A stretch of DNA of 64,000 nucleotides. Source: Globisporangium splendens. Lineage: Eukaryota; Oomycota; Peronosporomycetes; Pythiales; Pythiaceae. Position numbers and translations under genes: made by a program. Of the stretch, positions 3,527 through 45,230 are shown in pieces. The stretch spans positions 592,693 through 656,692 of the forward strand of contig VFIW01000007.1 in NCBI GenBank assembly GCA_006386115.1. The letters are read 5' to 3'. Below the pieces are notes generated by a model. It ran no database searches. It was not told the DNA's origin and worked only from the letters and a program-made list of their open reading frames with translations. Each line of letters starts with the position of its first letter. Positions within the stretch are counted from its first letter, which is position 1.

Positions 3527-4465
3527 ATGGACAACCTAATTGCTGGGCTCGACCCCACCAACGACAAGACCACTATTGAGCAGATCCAGTTATACCACGG
3601 TATAAAGAATGCGTGTGTGGAGAACATTTACGCGCTCCTGACAAAGGCGAAGCAAATTGACGCTCTGAACGGCGTAAAGGACACTATTGACATTGGTGTG
3701 ATCAACGCGAAGAGCCAGATCGCTGCGCTCGAAGGGGCGGTGTCTGTGTACCGCAACAAGTTCGTCGCCACGATTGTCCAGAGCAGCACGTTCGTCATGA
3801 ATGTCAAGATCGTGAAACTGAGCGCTGACGCCCAAAAGCGCATCACCGATTTTGAGAAGCTAACTAATATGAGCACACCAAAGGTTAAGAGCATCCAAGC
3901 CACGTACGACTGGCTGACGAACGAAATTGCCGCGTCCACTAACTTCGACAAGGCGATCGGTGATGTAAAGGGAGACCCGACCTCTGATTTAATCGTTCCG
4001 GCAATGGCGACCTTAGTGTCGCTCTCCCAGTCATCGTACGAGAAGCTGGTGGAGATGCTGGCGAACTTCGACATCGTAAGTGATGTATACAACAAGACGG
4101 CGGGACTCCCCGAGCCGTTCTCCAACAGCTTGCCGGGAACGCTCAATACGGATCAGATTTCTTCTTTGATCTCGGACGGTGATTACGAGACAGCGCTGCT
4201 GAAGGTCGCGCTGGAGCCGGAGATAGTGTCCAACCATAAAAAATTCGCCGCAGAACGCGCAACATTCAATAGCGGCGGTGGCGTTCCCTCCGTTCGCGAC
4301 GACGACAACGATATCGTGCCCTGGGTCGGCCTCTTCGGACGGCCAACGTACAAGAAGAGCGACGGCACGTCGGTCGAAGCAAGTAGCCAGCGGCTCAAGG
4401 CTATCCCGTCAGACAATCCGGAAGTTCTGATGCGCGTTCACAACACCCGGCTATCGTTCGCATAA
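3527..4465 (+). CDS. Unrecognised 312-residue protein, virus-like island
   Basis: The frame of 313 codons is intact and ends in TAA. Third positions are rich in G/C, and the opposite strand carries only fragments. The protein is mostly helical in appearance with no obvious signal peptide or membrane segment; a Gly/Asp-rich loop lies near residues 245-265. I recognise no family. The ATG is the first codon after a retroelement junction, so the true N-terminus may be lost and this Met may be internal. The next frame on the same strand starts 46 bp downstream (4512), as in compact viral genomes. Virus origin is inferred from the neighbours, not from this protein. Confidence 0.6.
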   Translation: MDNLIAGLDPTNDKTTIEQIQLYHGIKNACVENIYALLTKAKQIDALNGVKDTIDIGVINAKSQIAALEGAVSVYRNKFVATIVQSSTFVMNVKIVKLSADAQKRITDFEKLTNMSTPKVKSIQATYDWLTNEIAASTNFDKAIGDVKGDPTSDLIVPAMATLVSLSQSSYEKLVEMLANFDIVSDVYNKTAGLPEPFSNSLPGTLNTDQISSLISDGDYETALLKVALEPEIVSNHKKFAAERATFNSGGGVPSVRDDDNDIVPWVGLFGRPTYKKSDGTSVEASSQRLKAIPSDNPEVLMRVHNTRLSFA

Positions 4466-4511
4466 ATTATTTCTGAGCCGCGCTCGGTCTGTCACATTTA
4501 TATAGCGCCAA

Positions 4512-4559
4512 ATGTCAATCAAAGGAGGGATAGCCTCGACCGGCGACAGCGTTGAGCTT
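4512..4559 (+). pseudogene. 5' end of a gene split by A1 (continues at 24566)
   Basis: An ATG at 4512 opens a frame of 16 codons that runs into the A1 insertion. The last 15 bases (4545-4559) are repeated at 24566-24580, where the same reading frame continues for a further ~200 codons to 25171. Removing A1 and one copy of the duplication restores one open frame that starts 46 bp after the stop at 4465. The split comes from the insertion; it is not an intron. Confidence 0.75.
4545..4559. repeat. Target-site duplication of A1, left copy
   Basis: GACAGCGTTGAGCTT here and at 24566-24580. Bases on either side differ, so the duplication is 15 bp. It marks the outer limits of A1 together with everything nested in it. 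Confidence 0.9.
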
Positions 4560-4663
4560 TATCTTTATAAGGTGAGGTATATTTAGGTTCATCGTCGTGA
4601 CCTACAATATCCATTCTCCTACATAATCTCAATTACGAATTTCATCTAGGAGTGTAAATGTGT

Positions 4664-7006
4664 CTATAGCGCGGATTGCAATAGATCATTTCTAACTGCT
4701 AAATTATCTTTGACCAGGATGGCATGTTCTCTTGGTCCTATGTGAGGCTGCCTTGTGTTGTCCAATGACCTTGGGTCTTCCGAACTTCGCATAAGCCAAT
4801 GCATGACGTCGTTGTAAAGATCCTGGGTGAGATTGTTGAAAGCAGCTCTTTGAGTTGGGAAGTGAACCTGCGTTGAGGTTCTGGTATCCATGGCTAGGTT
4901 GGCAGCTGAGTCCGCCATCTTGTTGAAGGCACGGTAGTGATGGTACCATCCTCGGATGTCGATGCAATCCGCGAGTCGTCGACTTGTCTGGCATAAACGT
5001 GCCAATCGGTGCTGTCGAGGGGACCGATGCATTCACTGTTGGGAGATAATGAGTGCACTGTCTCCAATCACGTACAACGGTTCGAAGTGACTGCGTTGGG
5101 CTTCTCGGAGTCCGTGTATGAGACCCCAGTACTCGGCAAAGTTGTTGGTCGTGTCCTTCCTGCTATAGGACATGCTCGCGGCCCAAATTAAAATGGCTGT
5201 GTGCGAGTCCTTATGGACACGCACGATAATGGATCCAGTCCCTCCTGGTCCTGGATTGCCGCGTGATCCACCATCGAAAAACAGCAGGTAAACGCCGCGA
5301 GCATCATTTGGAGTCAAGGGGATGGCGTCGGTTTGGCTGAGAAAGCAGTCGACATATGCCTTGAGAACTGCTGCAACCGTGTGACCATCAGAGTCTCCAG
5401 CTTGCGCTTCAGCGAGTCGTGTGAGGTTTCGCATTCCTGCCTCTAATTTGGTCATCATGACCGCCATCTCAGCAGTCGATTCGATTGGATCCGAATCCAT
5501 GCGTCGCAGGTGTGCACACCAAATGGCTTGTATGAGCGACGCGCTCATATATCGCCACAGCATGTGTGCGACGGAATAGAGATGATCTTGGAGATGTTCA
5601 TTGGAGCACTTGTGTCCGATAATGTGTCTCTTGATCGAGGTCCATGCATGCCTTGGAGTATCTGGCAGATCCAGACTGAAGATCCAGATTGCGGGGTCGT
5701 GACCAGGAGTGATTCCGATCTTCGTCCATAGCGCATAAAAGTAGTTCCACACCAGTTTGGCTCTCGGACACTCCCAGAATAGATGTTGAACAGAAGATTG
5801 GACAACTTGGGAGCATTCGGGATTCGAGCAGGATAGGTCAGCTTTCTCGTAGTTCCACATGGAGAGTCGGTTGGCTTTCAGCCGGAGAAGAGTCTGAGCC
5901 GTATAAACTGTAATCCCTAGGATGTTGCGTAATTCGCTCCATTGGATTAATTGCAGTCCTGGCCACAGAGATCCTGCTGTATGAACAGCTTTGTTGACTG
6001 CTGCATCTCGAGTATCTTTGCCAATTTGTGTCCTCGTTGCTGCAACTTGTTGCCGATAGAAAGATCTGGTGTTATTGCATCGTCCGTTGCCACCCCATAG
6101 TTGCACGATTCTTGTGAAACGTGGATGTGCATGGAACGACACCTTCTGTCCGTTCAAGTCTCTTGTTGCCATGACGTCACAGTCCATTGCAGAGTGAACT
6201 GTATGCGTAGCTTTGACTAGGGTCGTGTCGACGTGGGTCAGAGTTGCTTCACTGGTGTGCAGATGCCATTCGTGGTTATAATGACGCTGCCCGTTGTACA
6301 GCCGAAGCACATTTGCTTGCTGTGGTCGATACAGAAGCTGTGGGAAGTTGGATACCAACGTAGCACATAACCGCTCGAGCGCTCGAATAGATGGCCGGGA
6401 GGATCCGGAGATTCCACATGTTGGGATGAAGTTAAGCACTCCTGGTCTTATCCACTCCCATCGAAGTATATCGCCCAGTTGTGCTGTTCCAACTGATAAT
6501 GATGTGCGAGCAAGCTTGTAAGGGGAGCCGTTGGAATCAAGAAGCCACCCATCTGCAGTCGAGGTCATGTATGGCAGCCATTCTGCACAGAATGTCCCAC
6601 GCAGCTTTCGTCCTTCAGCGATGATACCTGGAAGCCTGTCAGACATTTTAGAGCTGAGGTCGATCTGGAACACATCGCCGTCCCAATGAGTCTGCACAAT
6701 TGTCGACTTGAAGTGCTCGTAACACCAACGTACATTGTCACGTTCTCTGTGCTCATACGGTCGAGAATGGAGCGACGCGCACAATGCTGCGCCAGTTGTC
6801 CACATGTTATCACGAAGCTGGAGTGGCCGCCTTGGAATTGCATCGAGCGGCGTGATGTACGTCGAAGAAGCCCTTGTGTTGTGCAGCAAGATTTCCCCGA
6901 TGGCCTGATCGATGTGAGAGGTTGTGATTGTCCATTTGGAGACTGCTGTGGCACTCATCGTCATCAGCTCAGTTCTGATGTTGGGTACTGACAAGCCTCC
7001 ATTCAT
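4664..7006 (-). pseudogene. A1 ORF2, C-terminal part (linker and RNase H)
   Basis: The frame starts with ATG at 7006, overlaps the upstream RT frame by four bases (ATGA), and encodes the region after the RT, then a linker with a cysteine/histidine cluster and an RNase H domain (FFDGGSRGNPGPGG near residues 592-605). A TGA at 5033-5035 replaces an Arg codon seen in the other copies, after which the same frame continues to 4664. The split from the RT frame is due to a run of six A's where intact copies have seven. RNase H would remove template RNA during reverse transcription. Confidence 0.88.
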
Positions 7007-9426: not shown

Positions 9427-10168
9427 GCAACGTCACCGTAGCTGCCATCCAGTGCGCATCCCACTGATCCTGCTTATATGGAGCCAGTGTAGGTATGCAC
9501 GAATAGGGATTCAACAAGATCGCCACTCCTCCTTTGCGCTCGGTGGAAGCTGACCAAAGAGGGAGTCTGGGATCCGACTCTTCTGATGGTTCCTGAAAAC
9601 CCCAACTTCGACGGAATCTGGATTGCATTGATGCCACTTCGGTCTCCAGGACGTGCGTTTCTTGGAGAAAGACAATGTCCAATGATCCCGAGTCATCAGT
9701 CTGTCGAAAATGTGAAAACCACGCGTTCGGATTGGCGTCGGATTTGGAGAACCCCATCACATTCTGTGTGTGGAATCCAACAGTTAGCTCATGGCGAGCA
9801 TTGACTGTCGCACTGCGCCTTCTGGGTAGGTGGTTGTCATCACGAGCTTGGGTTGTGGGTTGATATGGTCGCAACGGTAGTCCATCGCCGGAATACGTTG
9901 ATGTGCCTTGTATTCCACGCTGTACTTCCGCCGGAGAGACAGTTGAGCCATCTCCCCCTGCTCGCACTGAACTGCCACCAAGTGCAGTGCGAGTTGAGGC
10001 ACCATGGGTGCCTTTAGTTCTGATTGTGCCGCTGTTGGACCTCCAGCTCATGCTGGTGCGCCAATAGCGACCATGACGTCGTCGTGCCCACAATCGCATC
10101 AATTGCTGATTGTAGAGAAGACGAACGCCAATATTCTTCAGCTCGGGTTTCAGGCATAACGTGACCAA
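9197..10168 (-). pseudogene. A1 ORF2, APE-type endonuclease part
   Basis: Motifs of the exonuclease-endonuclease-phosphatase fold are visible: HTQNVMGF, FLQETHV and GGDFNCTL. The final SDH motif is in the next frame (7003-9426), so the domain itself is cut by indels around 9250-9290. This enzyme would nick the target DNA for target-primed reverse transcription. The first ~100 residues are basic and low complexity, and overlap the end of ORF1 by 155 bases in another frame. Confidence 0.85.
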
Positions 10169-13100
10169 CGGCTTCGTGCTTGGGGAACATGCTTGGTAGT
10201 AGAAGACTTGTCACATTGAGAATTGCCCATTTGTCTGGGTCAATGGGTCGCGAGACGGTCGCGGTCAATAGGCTATCATCTAGCTTTTCAAGTCTGTTCC
10301 ACTGCTTGATGTTGTCAGTCATGGACCAACGAGCGGAGCCTTGCGGACAGACGTCAACAGCCGATGCCCATTTCTTACAAAAGGCTCGCACTTGCGCGCT
10401 AACTGCATCGTCAGCTGAGTGATGCCGGATTAATGCGCGTTGAGCTTGACTGTTTATGCTGTGCCCAAAATCAAGAAGCTTTTTCACTGGGAACATGCGC
10501 AAGACCTCCAGTGGAAAAGGCAGTGCACAAATGAGCGCACTTAGAGCACCCACGTGACTGGGAATCCATCCAGTCAATTTGGAGACGTCGCTTGGATCAA
10601 CTGAAGGCAAGCTGAATCTTCGATTTTGTCGAGTCGCCGTGGTCCAGTCGCGCATGGCTTTGTCGTTTGCACGAAAGTGCTGTCTTCGAAGGGCTTGTTC
10701 AGCAGCCGTCAATTGTTCGAGCTCCTCTTTCGATCCAACCAATCGTCCAACCAGAGATGTGCGTGCTTGCCCATCGTCCTGGACAGAGTGAGACGGTGAG
10801 GAAGGAGGCGTCTCAAATTCGCCGCTTTCACTGTCGTTGGCAAAGGTTGACTCTTGACTGGCCTCGGATTGGCCTGGTGTCGTTGAAGCCGCTGCTTTTA
10901 AAACTGAGGACGCAAGTTCTGGGATCTTTCGTGCCCGTGGCCGATTTAACGTATGAGAGTGGGAATCTGGTTCTCGCTCCGGTTTCTGGAATCGATGTTC
11001 GTCATCCGTCGACCCTGTACCTAGTCCACTGCCCATCGCCGCATTGATTTCTGGCCCGGGACCAAAGACACCCGTTGGGTCTGCGTCTCGAGATTCAGCA
11101 GAGTCAATGTGTCCAAAATCTTGGTCAGCGCTACCTGGAGTTGGCTGGTTCATCGAGGGAGCACCGTTGCCTGCGTCCTCGGTACCATTTTGACTGCGCA
11201 TTTCCTGGTGAAAGGCTTTAGTCACCTCTGCTGGCAGAGGGAGAGTGGCTTGACCATTTGGCGGGGTCACAGCACCTCCCGTCAGATCTTGCAAGTGCAT
11301 CGTGGAATCCATCGACGTGGAATCCGCCAAGGACATCGTGACATCGAAGTGCGAGGGATCTTCAGAGTACCCAGAGGTGGTATCAGCTGATGGCTCCGAT
11401 GATGGTTGCTGGTTTGCCGATCCATCATCTCTAGACGCTGAGGGAAATGACTTCGAGCTGGGCTGGCTCGTTCTTGATTGCTCCTCGTCTTGAGTCTGCG
11501 CAGTAGGACTGTGCTCGTGGACGACATGAGCTTTGACAAACTCCCTGAGTTTCGTATAAGCAAGGTCTCGATCTCCTTGGCTTTCGGTATTCTCCGCGGG
11601 AGATGATCCTGAAGCAGCTGTCGTAGAAGCCTTGCTCCCAGCATGCTGATCGCCATCCTTGGGACCCAAATTCTTAGCTTTGGCTCGCTTTTTGAGTAAA
11701 TCAAGTTGCCTTTTCGCTCGATTTTTGGCGTTCTTGGCCTCCTGAAGGATCAGAGATGCAGCTGCTGCTTCTTTTGCTGTCACACGTTGCTGCAAATCAA
11801 GCAATTCAATCTGGCGTTGGAAATGTCCAGCTTCACGATTCGCAGATGAAGATTCCTCATCACGACCACTGGTGTCTGCCTCCTTGAGTTCGTCTCGATC
11901 GAGAGCAAAACTGTGCGCTTTGGCTGAAACGTCATGGAATTTGCGTTTTGCAGTCGCAGCCGCTGCAGCAGCTGCGGTGTGCGCGGAAGACGCTTTGGAC
12001 AGATGCTCCTTAGCAATGTCTAATGTTGCCTGAGCAGCGCTTAAGCGGGCGTCGATAGCAATCTTTTGCTTCGCTTGAGTGGAGTTTGCTTGTACCCCAT
12101 CAAGGACAGAATCAGCTGAAGAAAGCTTCCCAGCCAGAATGGCCTCAAGTTCAAGTTCGCGCTTCTTTCGAGCCTGGAGAGCCTTGCGGTTGCTCTGACC
12201 GTTAGAAGCCTTGATACTTGTCTCTGGAGACCCGGTCCCAAAGCTACCAGAGCTGGCTACTGATCCAGGAGATGTGCCGAAAACAGAAGTCAGCTTCGGA
12301 GCAGCCTTTAAGATTCCGCCTTTTGGCGCTCGTCTACCAGCTGATGCCGCGTCAGAAGCTGGATGGGGTTGCCCTTTCGACGCCGGTGAATTCTTCACTG
12401 GTGTGGTCGCTGAGGTTGAAATCGTGGATTTCATCGCCCCCTTCTGTTTCTTGATGTTGGCTGGATCGAACCATTCTGCCTCCGACGGCGTAACCGATTG
12501 AGCGTCTGTTGCAGAATTGGCCGCTGCTGCCACTGCTGCAGAGCCGGTGCTGCTACTCGAGTCAGCAGGCTGGAGCATCTCAGAGAGCAGCGCTTTCTCA
12601 GTTGCCTTGCTCTTCAGGTTGGCCATGACTTTGCCCAAACTATTGGAGAGATTACCAATGTACTTTTGTCGGACTTCAAGAGACATGTGCTGCAGCTCAA
12701 ATTTCGACATTTCCTTGGCTTGCTTGATTTCTGGTTCGAAGTCGCGATGAAATTGCATCTGACAATCTCCAGGAGCTCGAGTACACTTGCTTTTTGGGTG
12801 CGAGGGGTCGAAGCACTGAAAGCAAGGGATTCGGCTGTACCGCTGATGATGATGAACGAAGATCGAGAACCCTTTAGCAGAGATGTGGGTGACATCTTTG
12901 AGTTGAGGGGGACATTCCTCGGAATTGAAGATAACGACCCAGAAATTAGAGTCGTATGCGCCATCCCGTGCTCGCGGCGCGCGCGCAATGGACACGACTT
13001 CACATTCGGTGCTCAATGCTATCAGTTGGCCGACAATGTCATTGCCTAAGCCAGGAGCTACAACACGGACTTGATATTGTAGCACATCAGCTTGGTGGGG

Positions 13101-13613
13101 AATAACATTGTCAATGTCACATCGATCATCTTCTTCCTCGAGCTTGGCGGTGCTCAGGAGAACGAGTTTTTCATTACGAAGTTTGATTTCCCGTCGATGC
13201 CACTTCGTTGCGATGGACTGCTCCTTGACAATGAACGTCAGTCGCCGAGTCGCCGCAGTGTAGTACAAACGCTTGACATTCTGAATCCACTCGCACAGAT
13301 TCTTATAACCTGCTGAGCCGGCTGGCTCGGATGCAAGTAATTGCATAAGAATTGTCTTTTCCGCGATGTGTTCAGGCATCGAGATGCGCGGAGGGACCAC
13401 AGCAACGACTGTGCCTTCGAGGCAGTCTTCAAAGAATTTGACATAACCCATGCGTTGGAGGAAAGTGTGGGTACAAGCGAGGAATGCAGGAGGCGCGTCT
13501 AAGACGAGAGCACCCATTATCCAGGCATTCAACGCTTCTTCTTCGGCCGGCACCATCTTGCGTAGGTCATCATCGGGTTTGGTCTTCCATGGACGTGTAG
13601 CGATCTTGGTCAA
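10014..13613 (-). pseudogene. A1 ORF1 (gag-like, CCHC knuckle), main part
   Basis: This frame of about 1200 codons has a retroviral-type zinc knuckle CX2CX4HX4C (CFQCFDPSHPKSKC, near 12780-12830), a long alanine/lysine-rich helical stretch likely to form coiled coil, Ser/Thr/Gln-rich low-complexity stretches and a conserved C-terminal part. It should bind the element RNA. A TGA just upstream of the Met at 13613 and the insertion of B1-C-B2 at 13671 cut off the N-terminus, which lies at 24312-24442. A4 (36197-40000) shows the uninterrupted version. Confidence 0.88.
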
Positions 13614-13671
13614 TCACTGAACCCATGCACGATGACGCGCTTCACGCACCGCGGCATGAGTCCGAGTGTTC

Positions 13672-13686
13672 TTCTCTGGGTGAGCA
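13672..13686. repeat. 15-mer target site X, copy 1 (A1/B1 junction)
   Basis: TTCTCTGGGTGAGCA on the plus strand. It separates A1 ORF1 from the 3' tail of B1. Identical 15-mers lie at 14309, 23734 and 24297, and the unoccupied site is at 39855-39869 in A4. Confidence 0.92.
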
Positions 13687-14323: not shown

Positions 14324-14357
14324 AGAGAGAGAGAGAGAGAAGGTAATTCTATTTAAC

Positions 14358-24565: not shown

Positions 24566-24580
24566 GACAGCGTTGAGCTT
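24566..24580. repeat. Target-site duplication of A1, right copy
   Basis: GACAGCGTTGAGCTT, partner of 4545-4559. Confidence 0.9.
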
Positions 24581-25171: not shown

Positions 25172-25188
25172 ACTGGCGATCTGTTTTT

Positions 25189-30100: not shown

Positions 30101-30506
30101 TCGACATCCGAGGATGGTACCATCACTACCGTGCCTTCAACAAGATGGCGGACTCAGCCGCCAACCTAGCCATGGACACCAGAACCTCAACGCAGGTTCA
30201 CTTCCCAACTCAAAGAGCTGCTTTCAACAATCTCACCCAGGATCTTGACAACGACGTCATGCATTGGCTTATGCGAAGTTCGGAAGACCCAAGGTCATTG
30301 GACAACACAAGGCAGCCTCACATAGGACCAAGAGAACATGCCATCCTGGTCAGAGATTATTTAACATTCAGAAGTGATCTATTGCAATCCGCGCTGTAGA
30401 CACATTTACACTCCTAGATGAAATTCGCAATGAAGATTAGTTAGGAGAATGGATATTGTAGGTCACGATGATGAACCTAAATATACCTCACCTTATAAAG
30501 ATAAAG
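27163..30506 (+). mobile_element. Element A, copy A3, 5' truncated, head to head with A2
   Basis: The first 75 bp (27163-27237) copy a later piece of ORF2 (29083-29156); the true element starts at ~27238 with [13 protein letters not shown] of the RT. The 3' end and tail finish near 30506. Such scrambled 5' ends are typical of template jumping in target-primed insertion. No clear duplication was found around the A2/A3 pair. Confidence 0.85.
27238..30399 (+). pseudogene. A3 ORF2: RT palm to RNase H, open frame
   Basis: The frame is open from the RT motif [10 protein letters not shown] through YADD (near 27559), the seven-A run before the MNGGL codons, the linker and RNase H to the stop at 30399. 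The part 5' of 27238 in the same open frame is antisense A2 DNA and not a real start. It serves as the best reference for the undamaged C-terminal two thirds of A ORF2. Confidence 0.85.
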
Positions 30507-30740
30507 ATGATGCCGCTCAAACGGCCGAGGTTATCGCTAGCTACTTGTATGCTGATGGGAGCGTTGAGCCCGACACCGCTGGTTACGACGATCTCGAGGA
30601 CAAGCATATTTAAGAGGAGTATGAGGACGACTACGAATACGACAGCGACGACGAGAGCTTTTGAAAGGCAGTCATCCAATATTGTATTTATGCATCTTGG
30701 CGTATTTTTTTGTAGAAATGAAGGCTTGGCCTGCAAATAT
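30507..30740 (+). pseudogene. 3' end of an unrecognised acidic protein gene, virus-like island
   Basis: The open frame from the A3 tail gives about 35 codons to a TAA at 30611-30613, then 16 more in-frame codons, almost all acidic or Tyr, to a TGA at 30662-30664. The acidic tail continuing past the first stop suggests the TAA is a later mutation. The 5' part is lost to A3. The remaining 76 bp up to 30740 is the leader of the ligase gene, whose body resumes at 40137 after element A4. Confidence 0.45.
30728..30740. repeat. Target-site duplication of A4, left copy
   Basis: GGCCTGCAAATAT here and at 40124-40136; flanking bases differ (T versus A before it). Confidence 0.9.
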
Positions 30741-30847
30741 CTTTATCTTTATAAGGTGAGGTATATTTAGGTTCATCTTCGTGACCTACAATATCCATTC
30801 TCCTACCTAATCTTCATTACGAATTTCATCTAGGAGTGTAAATGTGT

Positions 30848-35479: not shown

Positions 35480-36351
35480 TTAAAGTCTCCACCGCACAGA
35501 ATGGGTCCATCATGTGACGAGAGGAGACCTGATAGTGCTCTGTAGAAAGCTTCCCTTGCAAATACAGTAGAAGGAGCGTAGATGTTGAGAAGTAACACCG
35601 TTTCACCACGCAACGTCACCGTAGCTGCCATCCAGTGCGCATTCCACTGATCCTGCTTATATGGAGCCAGTGTAGGTATGCACGAATAGGGATTCAACAA
35701 GATCGCCACTCCTCCTTTGCGCTCGGTGGAAGCTGACCAGAGAGAGAGTCTGGGATCCGACTCTTCTGATGGTTCCTGAAAACCCCAACTTCGACGAAAT
35801 CTGGATTGCATTGATGCCACTTCGGTCTCCAGGACGTGCGTTTCTTGGAGAAAGACAATGTCCAATGATCCCGAGTCATCAGTCTGTCGAAAATGTGAAA
35901 ACCACGCGTTCAGATTGGCGTCGGATTTGGAGAACCCCATCACATTCTGTGTGTGGAATCCAACAGTTAGCTCATGGCGAGCATTGACTGTCGCACTGCG
36001 CCTTCTGGGTCGGCGGTTGTCACGACGAGCTTGGGTTGTGGGTTGATATGGTCGCGACGGTAGTCCATCGCCGGAATACGTTGATGTGCCTTGTATTCCA
36101 CGCTGTACTTCCGCCGGAGAGACAGTTGAGCCATCTCCCCCTGCTCGCACTGAACTGCCACCAAGTGCAGTGCGAGTTGAGGCACCATGGGTGCCTTTAG
36201 TTCTGATTGTGCCGCTGTTGGACCTCCAGCTCATGCTGGTGCGCCAATAGCGACCATGACGTCGTCGTGCCCACAATCGCATCAATTGCTGATTGTAGAG
36301 AAGACGAACGCCAATATTCTTCAGCTCGGGTTTCAGGCATAACGTGACCAA
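35410..36351 (-). CDS. A4 ORF2, APE-type endonuclease part
   Basis: The motifs HTQNVMGF, FLQETHV and GGDFNCTL are present; the fourth (SDH) is in the next frame because of a one-base loss. The frame overlaps the end of ORF1 by 155 bases in a different phase, exactly as in A1. That suggests ORF2 is reached by frameshifting or re-initiation, though the start is not certain. Confidence 0.85.
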   Translation of the reverse strand: MVTLCLKPELKNIGVRLLYNQQLMRLWARRRHGRYWRTSMSWRSNSGTIRTKGTHGASTRTALGGSSVRAGGDGSTVSPAEVQRGIQGTSTYSGDGLPSRPYQPTTQARRDNRRPRRRSATVNARHELTVGFHTQNVMGFSKSDANLNAWFSHFRQTDDSGSLDIVFLQETHVLETEVASMQSRFRRSWGFQEPSEESDPRLSLWSASTERKGGVAILLNPYSCIPTLAPYKQDQWNAHWMAATVTLRGETVLLLNIYAPSTVFAREAFYRALSGLLSSHDGPILCGGDFNCTLNQMADRSHNTTTKCTIPGN

Positions 36352-39300
36352 CGGCTTCGTGCTTGGGGAACATGCTTGGTAGTAGAAGACTTGTCACATT
36401 GAGAATTGCCCATTTGTCTGGGTCAATGGGTCGCGAGACGGTCGCGGTCAATAGGCTATCATCTAGCTTTTCAAGTCTGTTCCATTGCTTGATGTTGTCA
36501 GTCATGGACCAACGAGCGGAGCCTTGCGGACAGGCGTCAACAGCCGATGCCCATTTCTTACAAAAGGCTCGCACTTGCGCGCTAACTGCATCGTCAGCTG
36601 AGTGATGCCGGATTAATGCGCGTTGAGCTTGACTGTTTATGCTGTGCCCAAAATCAAGAAGCTTTTTCACTGGGAACATGCGCAAGACCTCCAGTGGAAA
36701 AGGCAGTGCACAAATGAGCGCACTTAGAGCATCCACGTGACTGGGAATCCATCCAGTCAATTTGGAGACGTCGCTTGGATCAACTGAAGGCAAGCTGAAT
36801 CTTCGATTTTGTCGAGTCGCCGTGGTCCAGTCGTGCATGGCTTTGTTGTTTGCACGAAAATGCTGTCTTCGAAGGGCTTGTTCAGCAGCCGTCAATTGTT
36901 CGAGCTCCTCTTTCGATCCAACCAATCGTTCAACCAGAGACTTGCGTGCTTGCCCATCGTCCTGGACAGAGTGAGACGGTGAGGAAGGAGGCGTCTCAAA
37001 TTCGCCGCTTTCACTGTCGTTGGAAAAGGTTGACTCTTGACTGGCCTCGGATTGACCTGGTGTCGTTGAAGCCGCTGCTTTTAAAACTGAGGACGCAAGT
37101 TCTGGGATCTTTCGTGCCCGTGGCCGATTTAACGTATGAGAGTGGGAATCTGGTTCTCGCTCCGGTTCCTGGAATCGATGTTCATCATCCGTCGACCCTG
37201 TAACTAGTCCACTACCCATCGCCGCATTGATTTCTGGCCCGGGACCAAAGACACTCGTTGGGTCTGCATCTCGAGATTCAGCAGAGTCAATGTGTCCAAA
37301 ATCTTGGTCAGCGCTGCCTGGAGTTGGCTGGTTCATCGAGAGAGAACCATTGCCTGCATCCTCGGTACCATTTTGACTGCGCATTTCCTGGTGAAAGGCT
37401 TTAGTCACCTCTGCTGGCAGAGGGAGAGTGGCTTGACCATTTGGCGGGGTCACAGCACCTCCCGTCAGATCTTGCAAGTGCATCGTGGAATCCATCGACG
37501 TGGAATCCGCCAAGGACATCGTGACATCGAAGTGCGAGGGATCTTCAGAGTACCCAGAGGTGGTATCAGCTGATGGCTCCGATGATGGTTGCTGGTTTGC
37601 CGATCCATTATCTCTAGACGCTGAGGGAAAAGACTTCGAGCCGGGCTGGCTCGTTCTTGATTGCTCCTCGTCTTGAGTCTGCGCAGTGGGACTGTGCTCG
37701 CGGACGACATGAGCTTTGACAAACTCCCTGAGTTTCGTATAAGCAAGGTCTTGATCTCCTTGGCTTTCGGTATTCTCAGCGGGAGATGATCCTGAAGCAG
37801 CTGTCGTAGAAGCCTTGTTCCCAGCATGCTGATCGCCATCCTTGGGACCCAAATTCTTAGCTTTGGCTCGCTTCTTGAGTAAATCAAGTTGCCTTTTCGC
37901 TCGATTTTTGGCGTTCTTGGCCTCCTGGAGGATCAGAGATGCGGCTGCTGCTTCTTTTGCTGTCACACGTTGCTGTAAATCAAGCAATTCAATCTGGCGT
38001 TGGAACTGTCCAGCTTCACGATTCGCAGATGAAGATTCCTCATCACGACCACTGGTGTCTGCCTCCTTGTGTTCGTCTCGATCGAGAGCCAAACTGTGCG
38101 CTTTGGCTGAAACGTCATGGAATTTGCGTTTTGCAGTCGCAGCCGCTGCAGCAGCTGCGGTGTGCGCGGAAAACGCTTTGGACAGATGCTCCTTGGCAAT
38201 GTCTAATGTTGCCTGAGCAGCGCTTAAGCGGGCGTCGATAGCAATCTTTTGCTTCGCTTGAGTGGAGTTTGCTTGTACCCCATCAAGCACAGAATCAGCT
38301 GAAGAAAGCTTCCCAGCCAGAATGGCCTCAAGTTCAAGTTCGCGCTTCTTTCGAGCCTGGAGAGCCTTGCGGTTGCTCTGACCGTTAGAAGCCTTGACAC
38401 TTGTCTCTGGAGACCCGGTACCAATGCTGCCAGAGCTGGCTACTGTTCCAGGAGATGTGCCAACAACAGAAGTCAGCTTCGGAGCAGCCTTTAAGATTCC
38501 GCCTTTTGGCGCTCGTCTACCAGCTGATGCCGCGTCAGAAGCTGGATGGGGTTGCCCTTTCGACGCCGGTGAACTCTTCACTGGTGTGGTCGCTGAGGTT
38601 GAAATCATGGATTTCATCGCCCCCTTCTGTTTCTTGAGATTGGCTGGATCGAACCATTCTGCCTCCGACGGCGTAACCGATTGAGCGTCTGTTGCAGAAT
38701 TGGCCGCTGCTGCCACTGCTGCAGAGCCGGTGCTGCTACTCGAGTCAGCAGGCTGGAGCATCTCAGAGAGCAGCGCTTTCTCAGTTGCCTTGGTCTTCAG
38801 GTTGGCCATGACTTTGCCCAAACTATTGGAGAGATTGCCAATGTACTTTTGTCGGACTTCAAGAGACATGTGCTGCAGCTCAAATTTCGACATTTCCTTT
38901 GCTTGCTTGATTTCTGGTTCGAAGTCGCGATGAAATTGCATCTGACAATCTCCAGGAGCTCGAGTACACTTGCTTTTTGGGTGCGAGGGGTCGAAGCACT
39001 GAAAGCAAGGGATTCGGCTGTACCGCTGATGATGATGAACGAAGATCGAGAACCCTTTAGCAGAGATGTGGGTGACATCTTTGAGCTGAGGGGGACATTC
39101 CTCGGAATTGAAGATAACGACCCAGAAATTAGAGTCGTATGCGCCATCACGTGCTCGCGGCGCGCGCGCAATGGACACGACTTCACATTCGGTGCTCAAT
39201 GCTATCAGTTGGCCGACAACGTCATTGCCTAAGCCGGGAGCTACAACACGGACTTGATATTGTAGTGCATCCGCTTGGTGGGGAATAGTATTGTCGATAT

Positions 39301-40000
39301 CGCATCGATCATCTTCTTCCTCGAGCTTGGCGGTGCTCAGGAGAACGAGTTTTTCGTTGCGAAATTTAATCTCTCGTCGATGCCACTTCGTTGCAGTGGA
39401 CTGGTCCTTGACAATGAAGGTTAAACGCCGAGTCGCCGCAGTGTAGTACAAACGCTTGACATTCTGAATCCACTCGCACAGATTCTTATAACCTGCAGAG
39501 CCGGCTGGCTCGGATGCAAGTAATTGCATAAGAATTGTCTTTTCCGCGATGTGTTCAGGCATCAAGATGCGCGGAGGGACCACAGCAACGACTGTGCCTT
39601 CGAGGCAGTCTTCAAAGAATTTGACATAGGCCATGCGTTGGAGGAAAGTGTGGGTACAAGCGAGGAATGCAGGAGGCGCGTCTAAGACGAGAGCACCCAT
39701 TATCCAGGCATTCAACGCTTCTTCTTCGGCCGGCACCATCTTCCGTAGGTCATCATCGGGTTTAGTCTTCCATGGACGTGTAGCGATCTTGGTCAATCGC
39801 TGAACCCATGCACGATGACGCGCTTCACGCACCGCGGCATCAGTCCGAGTGTTGTTCTCTGGGTGAGCAGCATCAGGCTGAGGCGGTGTCTGGCCCATCA
39901 TGCCTCTTTTTATTTCTTCAACGCGATGGGGATCCCAACCAGAACATGCGGAATTCGTACCGCCACCATCAGGAGGCTGTTCAGGAGGAGGCTCCGTCAT
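36197..40000 (-). CDS. A4 ORF1, gag-like protein with CCHC knuckle
   Basis: The 1267-residue frame starts at the first Met inside the element (MTEPPPEQPP at 40000); the frame is open further upstream only because it runs into flanking DNA. The N-terminal region contains the AHPEN codons that form the insertion site X. A zinc knuckle CFQCFDPSHPKSKC lies near residue 330. A helical Ala/Lys/Glu-rich part around 480-650 and long Ser/Gln/Thr-rich stretches follow. Likely RNA-binding chaperone of the retrotransposon particle. Codon use resembles ORF2. Confidence 0.88.
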   Translation of the reverse strand: MTEPPPEQPPDGGGTNSACSGWDPHRVEEIKRGMMGQTPPQPDAAHPENNTRTDAAVREARHRAWVQRLTKIATRPWKTKPDDDLRKMVPAEEEALNAWIMGALVLDAPPAFLACTHTFLQRMAYVKFFEDCLEGTVVAVVPPRILMPEHIAEKTILMQLLASEPAGSAGYKNLCEWIQNVKRLYYTAATRRLTFIVKDQSTATKWHRREIKFRNEKLVLLSTAKLEEEDDRCDIDNTIPHQADALQYQVRVVAPGLGNDVVGQLIALSTECEVVSIARAPRARDGAYDSNFWVVIFNSEECPPQLKDVTHISAKGFSIFVHHHQRYSRIPCFQCFDPSHPKSKCTRAPGDCQMQFHRDFEPEIKQAKEMSKFELQHMSLEVRQKYIGNLSNSLGKVMANLKTKATEKALLSEMLQPADSSSSTGSAAVAAAANSATDAQSVTPSEAEWFDPANLKKQKGAMKSMISTSATTPVKSSPASKGQPHPASDAASAGRRAPKGGILKAAPKLTSVVGTSPGTVASSGSIGTGSPETSVKASNGQSNRKALQARKKRELELEAILAGKLSSADSVLDGVQANSTQAKQKIAIDARLSAAQATLDIAKEHLSKAFSAHTAAAAAAATAKRKFHDVSAKAHSLALDRDEHKEADTSGRDEESSSANREAGQFQRQIELLDLQQRVTAKEAAAASLILQEAKNAKNRAKRQLDLLKKRAKAKNLGPKDGDQHAGNKASTTAASGSSPAENTESQGDQDLAYTKLREFVKAHVVREHSPTAQTQDEEQSRTSQPGSKSFPSASRDNGSANQQPSSEPSADTTSGYSEDPSHFDVTMSLADSTSMDSTMHLQDLTGGAVTPPNGQATLPLPAEVTKAFHQEMRSQNGTEDAGNGSLSMNQPTPGSADQDFGHIDSAESRDADPTSVFGPGPEINAAMGSGLVTGSTDDEHRFQEPEREPDSHSHTLNRPRARKIPELASSVLKAAASTTPGQSEASQESTFSNDSESGEFETPPSSPSHSVQDDGQARKSLVERLVGSKEELEQLTAAEQALRRQHFRANNKAMHDWTTATRQNRRFSLPSVDPSDVSKLTGWIPSHVDALSALICALPFPLEVLRMFPVKKLLDFGHSINSQAQRALIRHHSADDAVSAQVRAFCKKWASAVDACPQGSARWSMTDNIKQWNRLEKLDDSLLTATVSRPIDPDKWAILNVTSLLLPSMFPKHEAVGHVMPETRAEEYWRSSSLQSAIDAIVGTTTSWSLLAHQHELEVQQRHNQN
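39855..39869. repeat. Empty target site X in A4 ORF1
   Basis: TTCTCTGGGTGAGCA occurs once here with no insertion. It shows that the 15-mer belongs to element A and was duplicated by B and C in A1. Confidence 0.9.
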
Positions 40001-40123
40001 TGGTCGAAACTCCGAAAACAGCTGGTTACTGAAGGATGGGACGCTGGCTCTTGATTGGTTCTTGCTTGAGTCTTGGGGCTTGGTATTGCGTAATCTGTGG
40101 GGTAGACCGCAAATTTCACAATA

Positions 40124-40136
40124 GGCCTGCAAATAT
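40124..40136. repeat. Target-site duplication of A4, right copy
   Basis: GGCCTGCAAATAT, partner of 30728-30740. Confidence 0.9.
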
Positions 40137-40144
40137 ACCCTGTC

Positions 40145-41379
40145 ATGCCGCAAACTCTCGGCCCTCTGTTCAATCGCCAGAATGGCAAAGTCCGCGAGTG
40201 GAGCATATCAGTCGCGCTCTTCACAGAAGCAGGCCACGAAATCCCCCTCAGCCAAGTCGAATGCGCCAAGATCAAAAAAAGGTACTACACATCGTATACA
40301 ACCTGTTCGGGCTGCTCGGGTATGAAGATGACTACCTCTGCGCCTACAGTCGTGCGGATGGGAAAGAATCTCGGACGCAAGGACGAGACTAACGTTCTCA
40401 CGCAGGCCAACAAGGAAAGTCAAAGCAGACACGCGGCCAAGATTATGGCCGGATACGTTCTGCGCGCTGCCGGTACTAGTGAATCCGGCACCCGACAGGC
40501 TAACGCAATGCCGTTTCCAATGGCTTTGAAAAGCTGGAAAGGCCACAAGGCAAAACTGGAGTATCCTCTCTATATCCAACCAAAGCTCGATGGGGTGCGG
40601 ATGCTGGCCAAGTATGAGGACGGTGAGGTTGCTCTCTACACGCGGCGCCTCCATGCGATCACTGGCTTCACGCGGGTGAGGCAGGATCTCAAGCACATGT
40701 TCCAGGCAGTTGGGTTCGGCTCCTTTATCATAGACGGCGAACTGTACTCTCATGGAACCGACTTACAGACGATCAGCGGCATCGTTCGCAACGAGTCGAT
40801 CCCCGAGACGGAGAAGGAGAAGCTGCTGTACCACGTGTTTGATTTCTTTGACCCCGCGAATGCCACGATTGGTTTCAAAAACCGATTCACCATCCTTCGC
40901 AACTTCGTCAAATCCACTAAGAGCGAGCTGGTCGTACTGAACGACACGTTCCACGTGGAAAACTCTAAGGAAGCGGATCGCTATTTCAAGAAAACTACGG
41001 CGGCTGGATACGAAGGTCTGATCTTCAAGTCTGCTGATCACCCGTATGAGTTCGACTTCAACAAGGAGAAGCGATCGTCGTGGTACCTCAAGCGTAAGAA
41101 GCAGGAGGATTGTGAGTTTCCGATCGTTGGCTTCACGAACGGGAGGGGAAAAGACGTTGACTGCATTGTGTTCGTTCTCGAGGCTAATGGCAAGCGGTTC
41201 AACTGCGTTCCCAACGGGACGTACGAGTATCGCAAGCAGCTATATGAGGCTGCGCGTATTCTTTCGACACCGAGTTTAACGGTAAGCTTGCTAAGGTTCT
41301 CTTCGATGATACCAGCAAAGACGGTGTGCCGCTTCGAGGCCAGATTACCCAAATCGGTCGCGATTTATCCTTTGATTAG
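40145..41379 (+). pseudogene. Virus-type ATP-dependent DNA ligase, frameshifted near the 3' end
   Basis: The nucleotidyltransferase motifs are in order: KLDGVR (motif I with the AMP-accepting Lys) near residue 148, IDGELY (motif III), EGLIFKS (motif IV) and SWYLKRKK (motif V), then an OB-fold-like end. An N-terminal part with REWSI and a GKNLGRKDET stretch resembles the small ligases of phages and large DNA viruses, which seal nicks during viral replication or repair. The frame runs on to 41614, but the ligase-like C-terminus continues in another frame from ~41265 and ends at TAG 41377-41379. One base change therefore breaks the gene. The region between REWSI and GKNLGR may also be altered. 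Its leader lies at 30665-30740, moved away by A4. Confidence 0.82.
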
Positions 41380-41434
41380 GAGCATATCTCTTTTTTATCG
41401 TACATTGTTGGAGGCGCCCGAACCAATTCAAAAC

Positions 41435-42946
41435 CTACACGCTTGCAGCGATGGCTGCCAAGCTTTTAGCCTTCTCTGCTTCGTTTTCCTCGTTGTAGCC
41501 CACAAGAACCGAGTGGATCTTCTGCGCGACCTTCTTCATAAACGCATACGTTGGAACGCAATCCGCGTCTTCCTCCATACGAACAATGTCGCGTCGAATA
41601 CACTGATCTTCTGACTTGATGAAGTGCCACACCTCGTAGTTGGTCACGATGCTGTACACCACGTTCAAGTCGTAAACGTCGGCGACAGCTTCGCAGCCCG
41701 TCAGACTTTGAGCTGTCCCCTTGTCAAACAGCTCCTTCTTGACCTCGACGATGCAGATCTTCTTCTTTCCCCGAGCGATCACGAATTCAAAGTGGCCAGT
41801 TGCGTTCACACGGTTCCCGACTACATCCTCCTCTGCGTGAAGAGTCGCTTTCGTTTTGGGCGTGTCCTCGCTTTCGTCAGAATTGAGGAGGGAACAAACG
41901 CAGACGAGGAACGGAGCGATGAAGTGCACGCGCTTGGCCTCCCTTCCATTCATGTAATCCCCGAATGCAGCGTTCGTTTCGCAGAGGTACTTGTGGAAAC
42001 GCTCCATGCGGTCGTCCGGAATAGCCAGCTCCGCTTGAGTATACTTCTGGACAGTGTCGAAGATTGACTCAACTTGGGACAACTTCACATCAGAGTAAGC
42101 AGTCAGCGGCTCATCGTCATCGCTTTTGACTTTGAACTTGACGCGTTTGTTCTGGGAAAAGCGTTCATTGAGCTTGCGCCAGCGCTTCAGACGGATGGAA
42201 TGGTGAATCTTACTCTTGGGGATGTTCAGCGTGTACACGATCACCTGAATGGTTTTCTGCGCAGACGACTCTTGCGTGAACACGTCTTCGACGAGGCTGG
42301 ATGAATCAAGCTCGTCTTGAAGAAGCAGGTCTTCAAACACGTCGCTGTTGCCTAGGAGAGTATCTGGCGTCGCAGAGATCCACTCGCCGTTGCGCTTCGC
42401 GAGAAAGAGCTTGAGCTTGTCTGCAGAGAATCCCTTGAGATCAGATTCTGCAGTCGCCTTGATCCTCCTTCTTAGCTGAAAGATCGGATCGGTCTGGGGC
42501 AGTTTCACGGAGAAGATGCTCTTCTTGCCGACGATGACGCAGTTCAACGTTCGCGTTGGCGCTGCGGGCTTCTTAGGTGTCTTCGCGGTTGTCTTCGTGG
42601 GTACGGTCACCAGCAGATGAATCGTCCGCTTCGGTAGAGGGAACGAAATCACGTCCTCGAGTTGTTCAGTTGGATCTAGCTCATCTTGAAGCAAGTCCCG
42701 CACAGTTGAGCTGTTGCCTGCTTTCAACGCAGCCATGTCGTCCGATTTACTCGCTAGCCATTGCTCCGAGCCGTCCTCCGTACGTCGAGCAAGAAAGAGC
42801 TGCAACTGGTGTGCATCCACACGGGCCAAAACATGCTGGTTCTCCTTCTTGATTGCCTTCTTCACATCGTCAACCGTCGCTGTTGGCGCCACATCAAGAG
42901 AAAACACGTCCCCCACGACGCCCACGATCACACAGAAGAGCTTCAT
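41435..42946 (-). CDS. Crinkler (CRN)-like protein with doubled N-terminal module and nuclease-like C-terminus
   Basis: The 503-residue frame starts at a Met giving MKLFCVIVGVVGDVFSLDV, the usual opening of oomycete CRN proteins. Two ubiquitin-like header modules follow one another, with LQLFLAR (~residue 50) and LKLFLAK (~residue 155), the LxLFLAK signature. A basic linker leads to a C-terminal region (residues ~330-480) with FEFVIARGKKKICIVEVKKE, which fits the core of a PD-(D/E)xK nuclease. CRN proteins are modular proteins thought to act inside other cells or in conflicts, often in the nucleus. There is no classical signal peptide. The open frame extends upstream to 43408, but those residues lack CRN character. 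It sits between virus-like genes; host or virus origin is open. Confidence 0.85.
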   Translation of the reverse strand: MKLFCVIVGVVGDVFSLDVAPTATVDDVKKAIKKENQHVLARVDAHQLQLFLARRTEDGSEQWLASKSDDMAALKAGNSSTVRDLLQDELDPTEQLEDVISFPLPKRTIHLLVTVPTKTTAKTPKKPAAPTRTLNCVIVGKKSIFSVKLPQTDPIFQLRRRIKATAESDLKGFSADKLKLFLAKRNGEWISATPDTLLGNSDVFEDLLLQDELDSSSLVEDVFTQESSAQKTIQVIVYTLNIPKSKIHHSIRLKRWRKLNERFSQNKRVKFKVKSDDDEPLTAYSDVKLSQVESIFDTVQKYTQAELAIPDDRMERFHKYLCETNAAFGDYMNGREAKRVHFIAPFLVCVCSLLNSDESEDTPKTKATLHAEEDVVGNRVNATGHFEFVIARGKKKICIVEVKKELFDKGTAQSLTGCEAVADVYDLNVVYSIVTNYEVWHFIKSEDQCIRRDIVRMEEDADCVPTYAFMKKVAQKIHSVLVGYNEENEAEKAKSLAAIAASV

Positions 42947-43402
42947 TGCTGTCCTTGGCGTGAAGAAAAAACAGAATGGCGCTATTTTAGGCGGTTCACC
43001 AAATATTTGTGGACCACATTTGCCTGAGACGACATGGACTGAGCGAAGCGTCGCGAAGGATCGCCAAGGTTGAAATATAAAACCTCGATGTCGTTGAGAA
43101 ACCGCTTGGTAAAACCTAAATAACCTTGCCTGGCGCGCCTGCTCGAGTTTCTCTTCACTTCGAGATTTCGAGCGGGACGAGCATGTGGCGTTGTGCGGTC
43201 GCTTCTGCTGGATAGCAGGGGCTTTCCACTGTCCACGTCGTGTAATCCCGTGCGGCGTGTCGATCAGAGCGAAGCTGCCGTCGTCGCCTTCACTGGATTG
43301 TGAAAGCTTTCGATTGGTTGTCTGAGCCTTGGTCGTGCGAATCATGACCGCGGAGGAGCGGAAGGAGGTGTACACTGCTGGTGAGCAGGTGCCTCGATTT
43401 GA
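42947..43402. promoter_or_regulatory. Intergenic region between CRN-like gene and 43.4 kb ORF
   Basis: The two neighbours are divergent, so this 456 bp stretch probably holds both promoters. No specific motif is convincing. It also carries the fortuitous open extension upstream of the CRN start. Confidence 0.35.
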
Positions 43403-43707
43403 TTGCATACTGCGTTTCGACTCTTTAACATTGTTCGTGTAGAGAGCACTGGGCGCAACGACGACGACGACAATGAGACTGTGTCAAGCTCGCCAGCTCT
43501 ATCCACGACCGACCTCCAGTCAAAAGCGTCTGCGAAGCCGAACCCGAAGTCGAGAGCGCACCCGAACGCGAAGCCGAACGTGAATCCGCCTGGGGCAGAA
43601 TCAACGGTGGCTGTCGACTCCGGTAATGCGCCTCCTGGAGTGCGACGACTTGTGTTTTCGACGGCTACTCGTACGATCACGGAAACGGCACACCCATTCC
43701 CGAGTAT

Positions 43708-44406
43708 TTGCGTCAAGTCTTTCAAGATAAGACAGCGCAGAAGCTACATCGCCTCCCGTGGATGACCGAGTTCAGTCGAGACTACGTCAAAATCGTCGCG
43801 CCGACTGAGAAGAATCCAGTTCGGTTGTTCGACTGCTCCAGTATCACCACGAGTTTCTTCAATGAAGACCATGACACTTGCCTCATCGATCTTTACTTCT
43901 ACGATCGCTTCGTGAAGTCTGGTGGTGTCGAAGATCAGCGTTGGTCTCCTGAAAGGCATCTCGCTGCGTGGAATCGGTTTGTCGAGAAGTTCAATTGCAA
44001 TCCGCAGACCTGGTTATACCATCATCGCCTGGATGAAGAAACTTTCTTCAAGTCCAACGGACAAGTCGCAGTCATGGTCAAGATTCATTGCATCTGCGTG
44101 AACATGGAGTGGCCGTGCGCTGTCGTCGAGAAGTACAAATGCCCAATGTGCTACGCTGGTGCCGAAACTGTGTCTCTCTCCAAGGTGGGAGGCGGGCCAC
44201 CCTTCCAGGAACGTCTGCTGGAGTTGACGACGCTGTTGGACCGTATCATGGACGTGGACATTGCGCGTCTCTCGGCTCAGATCTCGGAGATTCACCAAAA
44301 CAATCGAAAGCGCGACCGCCGTATTGATCAGCTCGAGCATTCGATGGAGCCTTCGTATTCGTCGTCTGACTCGCCTTCGCCGTCGCGAAAGCACAAGAGC
44401 TCGTAG
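43708..44406 (+). CDS. Unrecognised protein with CxxC and coiled-coil end; 5' end uncertain
   Basis: The open frame of 232 codons from ATG 43708 to TAG 44406 has coding-like composition. A CPMC motif near residue 144 may bind metal; residues ~165-212 look like coiled coil, followed by a Ser-rich, basic tail. The same frame is protein-like upstream to ~43655, while a different frame (43403-43765) carries a Pro/Lys/Asn-rich stretch. That suggests one gene with a frameshift at a T run near 43657, or simply a later start. I do not recognise the family. Confidence 0.5.
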   Translation: MRQVFQDKTAQKLHRLPWMTEFSRDYVKIVAPTEKNPVRLFDCSSITTSFFNEDHDTCLIDLYFYDRFVKSGGVEDQRWSPERHLAAWNRFVEKFNCNPQTWLYHHRLDEETFFKSNGQVAVMVKIHCICVNMEWPCAVVEKYKCPMCYAGAETVSLSKVGGGPPFQERLLELTTLLDRIMDVDIARLSAQISEIHQNNRKRDRRIDQLEHSMEPSYSSSDSPSPSRKHKSS

Positions 44407-44438
44407 TTTGATGTGTTGCGTTGATTAATTTATTGAAA

Positions 44439-44867
44439 TCAGACGATGAACGATTCGATTGCGTTTGCGACGTTGTCTGGAAATCCAAATGCCATAACAC
44501 CATGGCCGATCCGCAGTCGTTGCTTCAATGTCGCAGTTGGCTGGAGTTGCTCTCGAAAATAGAGAATCGTTTTGCGTGTTAGAGATTGATTGATTGCTAG
44601 GTGGAGCCATTCGATCCGATTCGCAAATTGGATCAGTAGCGGCAACGAAAGAACCTCCCTGCTGCAGATTCCATCCCATCGCAATTCATTCGCGAAGTCG
44701 CAGATGAATCGCTCGGACAGCACGTGGAAGAAGCTGATGGTTCTCAAATTGATTCTGTCTTTGAACTCGCGGAGGAATTCCTCCGATAGATTCTGGTATG
44801 CACTGATATGATCCCAGTCGACCAACTCGACGTTGGCTCTGGCATAGAGCTCAATACTAAATGACAT
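44439..44867 (-). CDS. LSEEF/REF-repeat protein, giant-virus style
   Basis: The intact 142-residue frame contains WDHISAYQNLSEEFLREFKDRI followed by a degenerate second unit (ISFFHVLSERFICDF), then weaker units (LLIQFANRIEWLHLAI). Repeats of the W-x2-IS-x2-Q-x-LSE-x-FI-x-EF kind are, to my knowledge, common in proteins of giant viruses such as mimiviruses and marseilleviruses and rare elsewhere; their function is unknown. The gene is convergent with the 43708 ORF (33 bp gap) and 45 bp after the next minus-strand frame, a compact viral-like spacing. Confidence 0.65.
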   Translation of the reverse strand: MSFSIELYARANVELVDWDHISAYQNLSEEFLREFKDRINLRTISFFHVLSERFICDFANELRWDGICSREVLSLPLLIQFANRIEWLHLAINQSLTRKTILYFREQLQPTATLKQRLRIGHGVMAFGFPDNVANAIESFIV

Positions 44868-44912
44868 CCTCGTTCGTGTATATTGATTCCGACTTTTTGT
44901 CGAGGCGGCCTT

Positions 44913-45230
44913 CTAGTCGCTGTAGTACACGACCTTGTCCCAACTACTGACAATCATGTCGAGGATGAACTTGCGGATGAGAACCGCTTGGTCGTGATTG
45001 TTCACGTGGTCGAGATTGATGCGTCCGGATCGGAACAGCTTGACAGTAGTTACCTTATTACGGAAGCGCTTGGCCGACTTGTTGTTGAGATACCAGATGT
45101 TCTGCATCATGCGAACGACGCGCATCATCTTACGATGCGTGTAGCAATCGCCCGCGCACTTGTCGTCACACTGGCACGTCGATGGGGTATACTCTTCCGC
45201 CTTGTTCTTGCCAGAAGCGGGTATGCTTCG
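44913..45230 (-). pseudogene. Unrecognised protein fragment at the virus/host junction
   Basis: The last ~100 codons of this frame (ending TAG at 44913) look coding: a Cys-rich CQCDDKCAGDC, then a basic helical part with HRKMMRVVRMMQNIWYL. Toward its 5' end the frame overlaps the end of the EML-like pseudogene in another phase, so its own N-terminus appears to be lost at the junction near 45.2 kb. The apparent Met at 45284 lies within EML-derived DNA. No family recognised. Confidence 0.5.

Follow-up and report, generated by a model that had tools for sequence, protein, structure and literature searches.

Boundaries of the insert and the host gene

The window, a stretch of 64,000 nucleotides of Globisporangium splendens DNA, alternates repeat stacks with short non-repetitive pieces, and the question that it raises is whether these pieces come from a giant virus or from the oomycete itself. 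A preliminary description had read them as a decayed giant-virus-like insertion in four pieces. The four are real, computed here at 3527–4556, 24566–25474, 30512–30733 and from 40123 onward, with the right end of the last moved from 45230 to 45210, where the host gene starts. They are remnants of one viral insert, which is very probably a genome fragment of an asfarvirus-like giant virus captured in a host EML-type gene and kept as an endogenous viral relic.

Several linked viral genes lie in the host chromosome with host gene sequence on both flanks. Host sequence ends at window position 45211 and restarts at C173:567464 (contig coordinates), 70.4 kb apart, and the insert reaches about 25 kb past the left edge of the window; about 14.2 kb of it lies outside repeat stacks. 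The upstream half of the host EML/HELP/WD40 gene occupies 45211–46854 on the minus strand (PF23414, E 5e-106, and junction alignment), and the downstream half runs from C173:567464. Once joined, the two halves can be aligned to paralogous EML repeats straight across the junction, the alignment having gaps of 1–2 residues, and the loss of host coding sequence at the insertion site is little or none (within 1–2 codons). The 4-bp CTGG is found at both host junctions, and the insert boundary severs ORF 44913–45284, the viral portion of which is 44913–45210 (minus strand). The CTGG at both junctions, the little or no host loss and the ends of the viral fragment, which appear to fall within viral genes, together suggest that linear viral DNA could have been captured by end joining into a break in the EML coding sequence. 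The insertion split the host EML gene.

Repeat stacks within the insert

The repeat stacks, the retrotransposons of the preliminary description, are LINEs where tested, with RVT_1 in three of the four repeat ORFs tested and Exo_endo_phos in one of the four. The first to reach into the window is a nested stack of about 21.4 kb, mostly left of it, with its right end at 1–3526. It splits the ORF-3527 gene, the N-terminal part of which was located by tblastn and a whole-genome search at C173:574408–574839, 21 kb off; the stack parting the gene halves is flanked by a 15-bp duplication, and this 15-mer occurs only at C173:574825 and window position 3527 in the 144 kb examined. A LINE stack (4560–24565, minus strand; RVT_1 and Exo_endo_phos in ORF 15943–19530) parts pieces 1 and 2, with one copy of a 15-mer on each side, at 4545 and 24566. 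The LINE that parts pieces 3 and 4 (30741–40123, minus strand; RVT_1 in ORF 30848–35479) is flanked by a 13-mer at 30728 and 40124. Both target duplications had been noted before, and each occurs nowhere else in the 144 kb. An inverted LINE pair (25477–30508; RVT_1 in ORF 27028–30399) lies between pieces 2 and 3, where a target duplication was sought and not found; the link between those pieces had been conceded as an inference from the start. Three of the five internal joints of the insert thus carry duplications of 13–15 bp, and two do not, across which we infer colinearity.

The insert grew from about 14 kb to 70 kb through five or more subsequent landings of repeats, LINEs where tested, which also broke viral genes. 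LINE insertion is the main damage to the insert, and the viral frames are mostly open, so that "decayed" was too strong a word.

Viral genes of the insert

The virus-type ATP-dependent DNA ligase reported earlier is real (40145–41376, plus strand; PF01068, E 3.5e-21; PDB 6imj, E 3.1e-27) and is, judged by its sequence, asfarvirus-type. Its family is colinear with PDB 6imj, the African swine fever virus DNA ligase, over the full length, the N-terminal domain included: the family profile aligned at positions 5–401 with chain positions 16–409 (E 7.6e-62), and the second-best enzyme matched at positions 189–349 only (E 4.7e-18). Unlike 6imj, it switches frame near the C-terminus, at about residue 370, with the last 39 residues in another frame, and the C-terminal domain is thus not in one frame. 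The KLDG motif, presumably that of the catalytic lysine, is invariant across 18 aligned rows. The asfar-type copy is single in the 53.3-Mb genome, where the sole other ligase-like match, on contig C129, is distant (28% identity, E 3.3e-6) and presumably the host's own enzyme. Environmental relatives share about 60% identity with the window ligase and are far nearer to it than 6imj, and in a free tree of 78 of the 120 listed proteins (long branches and fragments excluded) it falls within a mostly environmental set of 46 rows (support 91, not starred). The closest ligase found in IMG/VR (53%) lies on a contig that also has capping-enzyme, N7-methyltransferase and KilA-N domains.

ORF 3527 (3527–4465, plus strand), one of the ORFs listed before, covers no more than the C-terminal part of a gene, and its 312 aa belong to a conserved viral protein with no assigned function. 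It gave 62 matches including itself, so that 61 other members were found (best E 3.2e-70) of a family that is known from metagenomes and occurs once in the 53.3-Mb host genome. This metagenomic family and the colinearity of the ligase both support the giant-virus-like insertion first proposed. Because three contig sizes with the same source (105006, 184505 and 34171) are common to the ORF-3527 and ligase match lists, the two families probably share viral contigs. A further size, 2238, is common to both lists from differing sources and looks like chance. Scans by short exact patterns gave no relative of ORF 3527 in IMG/VR (protein and alignment) or in prokaryote genome contigs, and its predicted model (mean pLDDT 74.5) matched no viral fold at E <= 0.001. 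A single PDB sequence match, to a galectin-1 chain (E 0.0012), was taken as chance.

The second viral gene begins on the plus strand at ATG 4512 and is cut by the LINE after its first codons (4512–4559, ending in the target duplication at 4545–4559); the remainder (ORF 24563; 24566–25171, plus strand) starts with the other copy of this duplication. ORF 24563 found only itself in the host genome, had no PDB match and gave sub-threshold Pfam matches only, of which a likeness to adenylate kinase (E 0.012) is not believed. Piece 3 (30509–30740, plus strand), read by eye, looks like a short remnant of coding sequence for an acidic stretch, interrupted by an in-frame stop, and it ends in the 13-bp duplication at 30728–30740. 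Piece 4 also holds a 214-aa ORF (43762–44406, plus strand), for which Pfam and NCBIfam gave nothing within the limits applied, and the LSEEF/REF-repeat protein of the preliminary description (44439–44867, minus strand). Repeats of the REF kind are a common feature of giant viruses. This ORF is real and matches nothing but itself in the host genome; a weak match (34% over 50 aa, E 0.003) lies on the same IMG/VR contig as the closest ligase found there. The short gene gaps described earlier stand as well, while two of the listed ORFs outrun the viral sequence, 25189–25521 into a repeat and 44913–45284 into the host.

Left of the window, the insert encodes an RPB5 domain (E 4.7e-8) and an RNase H (E 1.8e-16). 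The RPB5 protein had no relative in IMG/VR by short exact patterns, a type of scan that distant relatives can escape. For several ORFs of the left part, the searches made gave no relative, and PDB searches with the two leftmost gave nothing useful; a likeness of the leftmost to TATA-binding protein was considered but is backed by no search result. Searches of the host genome for capsid (PF04451, PF16903) and VLTF3 (PF04947) gave no match, with control searches equally silent, as did D5_N, for which the control was positive in 3 of 14 genomes. Compared with the insert, the ORFs of 12 viral loci showed no convincing similarity beyond the ligase and the weak REF match.

Origin of the Crinkler genes

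Two Crinkler (CRN) genes lie within the insert boundaries, one in the window and one in the left part (PF20147, E 5.8e-37 and 1.9e-23). The window gene (41435–42946, minus strand; 503 aa, two Crinkler N-domains) had been overlooked, as had the bounding host gene and the insert portion outside the window. By eye, its C-terminal region looks PD-(D/E)XK nuclease-like; the left CRN gave an MmeI_N match below the cut-off (E 0.0077). Crinkler genes are known as plant-pathogen effectors.

The chances appear even that both are host genes that entered the viral DNA once it was endogenous. CRNs are numerous in the host, with at least 52 domain matches, of which 3 fall in the insert. In the CRN tree, the two insert genes are placed beside two environmental CRNs and not with those of the host, at moderate support (93/86, not starred). 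Short pieces of a related C-terminus occur elsewhere in the genome (best on contig C188, E 8e-10 over 60 aa), whereas for the C-terminal half of the window gene, the 30 of 52 CRN matches compared yield one relative, the other insert CRN. IMG/VR gave no relative in short exact pattern scans with two CRN alignments and one metagenomic CRN, and codon usage, with several host-CRN rows excluded, fails to separate viral, host and CRN genes. An oomycete origin is also what the authors of PMC8204020 hold probable for the CRNs of the Phytophthora parasitica viral contig. A later move into the insert has to contend with the surroundings of the genes: a search around the left CRN gave no repeats, and those around the window CRN are short and imperfect (12–27 nt), none an evident flanking duplication.

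Tentatively, the asfar-like virus itself may have carried the Crinkler genes. If so, giant viruses would be vehicles that bring Crinkler genes from one oomycete to another, and the genes may act in virus–host or virus–virus conflict; with two CRN genes inside its boundaries, the insert makes giant-virus transport of effector genes testable.

Age and number of insertions

It is doubtful that the insert descends from a single ancient asfar-like insertion in the Phytophthora–Pythium ancestor, about 80 million years ago, as proposed in PMC8204020. Asfar-like sequences are present in related species, and AU tests on a quick 63-row tree, cut down likewise, fail to reject a single clade for the ligases of G. 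splendens, P. ramorum and P. cactorum (p 0.33) or for the pairs that include the G. splendens ligase (p 0.53 and 0.72), but the free tree does not unite the three oomycete ligases, and the ligase trees leave one versus several insertions unsettled. The absence of stop codons in 1,452 viral codons argues against a neutral relic of 80 million years, since neutral divergence above about 2% would give at least one stop at 95% probability (kappa 2), an estimate that assumes no selection and uses frames found partly because they are open. With its resolved junctions and largely open frames, the insert makes the age and number of oomycete asfar-like insertions testable. That the pieces are ordinary oomycete genes broken by retrotransposons is extremely improbable, given an asfarvirus-type ligase family, a metagenomic ORF-3527 family, ligase, ORF-3527 and REF genes that are each single in the genome, and an interrupted host gene, even if the G+C of the viral segments (0.46–0.53) is near that of the host (0.51–0.53).

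Comparison with known systems

The captured asfarvirus-like fragment places a relative of African swine fever virus in the chromosome of a soil-borne plant pathogen. Endogenous asfar-like elements in oomycetes are a kind already known: PMC8204020 describes an asfar-like giant virus endogenized in P. parasitica and endogenous asfar-like viruses in Phytophthora and Globisporangium, the carriers including Globisporangium irregulare, ultimum and iwayamae. The appeal of the preliminary description to Phytophthora has a published basis, but the host here is G. splendens; neither "splendens" nor "ligase" occurs in the main text of that paper. Like the P. parasitica element as described there, the G. 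splendens insert has asfarvirus-like genes in an oomycete chromosome amid transposable elements, with CRNs on the same contig. Unlike it, the insert has both host-gene junctions resolved, largely open frames and CRNs inside the insert boundaries.

The two CRN genes inside the insert are the less expected part. They share with Crinkler effectors the PF20147 N-terminal domain and an LFLAR/LFLAK-like motif. They differ from the usual Crinkler effectors in sitting within a viral insert, and in their C-terminus, which the two have in common and which otherwise recurs mainly in a P. cactorum protein and a metagenomic protein, one of each.

Boundaries of the insertion

The asfarvirus-like insert is bounded by the two halves of one host gene in Globisporangium splendens, an oomycete of the Pythiaceae. 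An EML/HELP/WD40 gene flanks it on both sides on the same strand, the right half stopping at window position 45211 and the left half picking up at C173:567464 (the window being C173:592693-656692 in a 53.3-Mb genome). Once joined, the host residues can be aligned across the junction with EML repeats from this gene and from a paralogue on C125, with gaps of 1-2 residues; both junctions carry CTGG, and the downstream half contains at least one in-frame stop, counted without an intron model. The insert spans 70,438 bp, with 14,157 bp in six segments outside repeat stacks. Left of it, two glycosyl hydrolase family 53 genes adjoin each other (L075:4944-5975 and L075:7102-7977).

The preliminary description had divided the non-repetitive viral DNA of the window into four separate pieces, and a unique-interval computation bore out both the pieces and their coordinates (3527-4556, 24566-25474, 30512-30733 and 40123-45210); the target duplications proposed to join pieces 1 and 2, and 3 and 4, are both present in the sequence. 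Repeated DNA lies between the pieces. Among the ORFs tested in it, the domains detected are those of reverse transcriptase, endonuclease or RNase H, and some ORFs (10014-13613, 36197-40153) had no family match. Repeat copies are 95.8-98.9% identical (median 97.6%; 23 matches >800 bp in a 144-kb stretch). A repeat-associated ORF (19580-23698) had an OTU-protease match below the cut-off (E 0.004), and an ATR-type PI3/PI4-kinase occupies a single open frame of 3,140 aa at 50881-60303.

Viral gene content

The family profile of the ligase (40145-41376, forward strand, with one frame change) matched PDB 6imj, which we take to be the African swine fever virus ligase, over its full length (E 7.6e-62). 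The 41 other distinct solved sequences listed, a near-copy of 6imj aside, did no better than E 4.7e-18, and their matches lie mostly in the catalytic domain. Among the best 120 of 353 homologues, most lack an organism name; apart from G. splendens, the names given are Phytophthora ramorum for two and P. cactorum for one. G. splendens FI667_g2582 in the protein database is 99% identical across 78% of the ORF. The host genome has a distant ligase-like match on C129 (28%). The suggestion of a virus-type ligase was followed up with a 78-row tree, in which the gene falls inside a set of 46 rows with a support of 91 (not starred), P. ramorum being among its mostly environmental members. In IMG/VR, the ligase nearest to it (53%) lies on a contig also coding for capping-enzyme, N7-methyltransferase and KilA-N domains.

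For ORF 3527 (3527-4465, forward strand), the C-terminal part of a split gene, 61 relatives were retrieved apart from the ORF itself, most of them at 34-44% identity. Their alignment contains a hydrophobic N-terminal stretch, a motif rich in Cys and a C-terminal stretch that hardly varies; the ORF-3527 protein had no match in Pfam and no convincing one in PDB and fold searches. Three contig sizes with the same source are common to its hit list and that of the ligase, and we infer that these are the same contigs; for a fourth common size (2238) the sources differ. The missing N-terminal part was located by tblastn, with family members as queries, at C173:574408-574839, directly preceding a 21-kb repeat stack, and a 15-mer found on both sides of this stack is absent elsewhere in 144 kb.

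Left of this N-terminal part lie an RNase H (E 1.8e-16), an RPB5-domain gene (E 4.7e-8), a Crinkler (CRN) gene (E 1.9e-23) and an AlkB-like fragment below the cut-off (E 6.1e-7; 30.3 bits against 31.2), together with further ORFs that had no family match. Solved subunits from archaea and eukaryotes are also among the matches of RPB5, as is chain 8q3b_E, presumably of African swine fever virus; homology supports the RPB5 gene over its last 65 residues only.

Crinkler genes

Two Crinkler genes, this left CRN and the window CRN (41435-42946, reverse strand), lie inside the host boundaries and hold three of at least 52 PF20147 matches in the genome; with the 49 matches outside the insert spread over 53.3 Mb, about 0.01 would be expected in 14 kb, a rough guide given that CRNs cluster. 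Elsewhere, seven Crinkler matches with two groups of identical N-domains lie within ~16 kb (C136:12729-28339), an apparent tandem array. When 30 of the 52 PF20147 matches were compared, the window CRN matched, in its C-terminal half, the other insert CRN only. A whole-genome search gave eight matches: one is the window CRN itself, another is the second insert CRN (E 1.8e-21), and the remaining six score lower, with the best on C188 (E 8e-10, 60 aa). Three others match in the protein database, where scoring covered the 7,994 candidates that had the most words in common with the query.

In a 28-row tree with 24 host rows (3 too-short loci and 22 of 52 matches left out), one group unites the insert CRNs and the two metagenomic CRNs (93/86, not starred), and one pair within it is starred (96/88); two alternative groupings were not rejected (p 0.13 each). 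No CRN relative was found in IMG/VR, and any carriage of Crinkler genes by the virus is hypothetical. A below-cut-off MmeI_N match of the left CRN (E 0.0077), with motifs picked out by eye, hints at a putative nuclease-type C-terminus.

Decay and age

The RNase H, RPB5, ORF-3527 parts, ligase parts and REF-repeat gene (44439-44867, reverse strand; homology support weak) contain zero stops in 1,452 codons, an outcome with only a 5% chance at a neutral change of 0.021 per site (kappa 2). Piece 3 has an in-frame stop, and repeats break ORF 3527 and a second viral gene, ORF 24563. If unselected, the insert would probably be much younger than 80 million years, the age proposed for a Phytophthora-Pythium insertion in PMC8204020; this stop-based argument could lose force if there was selection, or through the choice of frames that are open.

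Comparison with known endogenous viruses

In the open-licence literature, we found no paper on this locus and none on giant viruses carrying CRNs. A marine survey gives six Megaviridae-oomycete gene transfers (PMC3749498). PMC8204020 describes endogenous asfar-like viruses in both Phytophthora and Globisporangium, and finds transposons and four CRNs sharing a contig with one such virus. A survey that preceded PMC8204020 had recorded Asfar-type sequences from Pythium irregulare, oligandrum and ultimum (PMC5294986).
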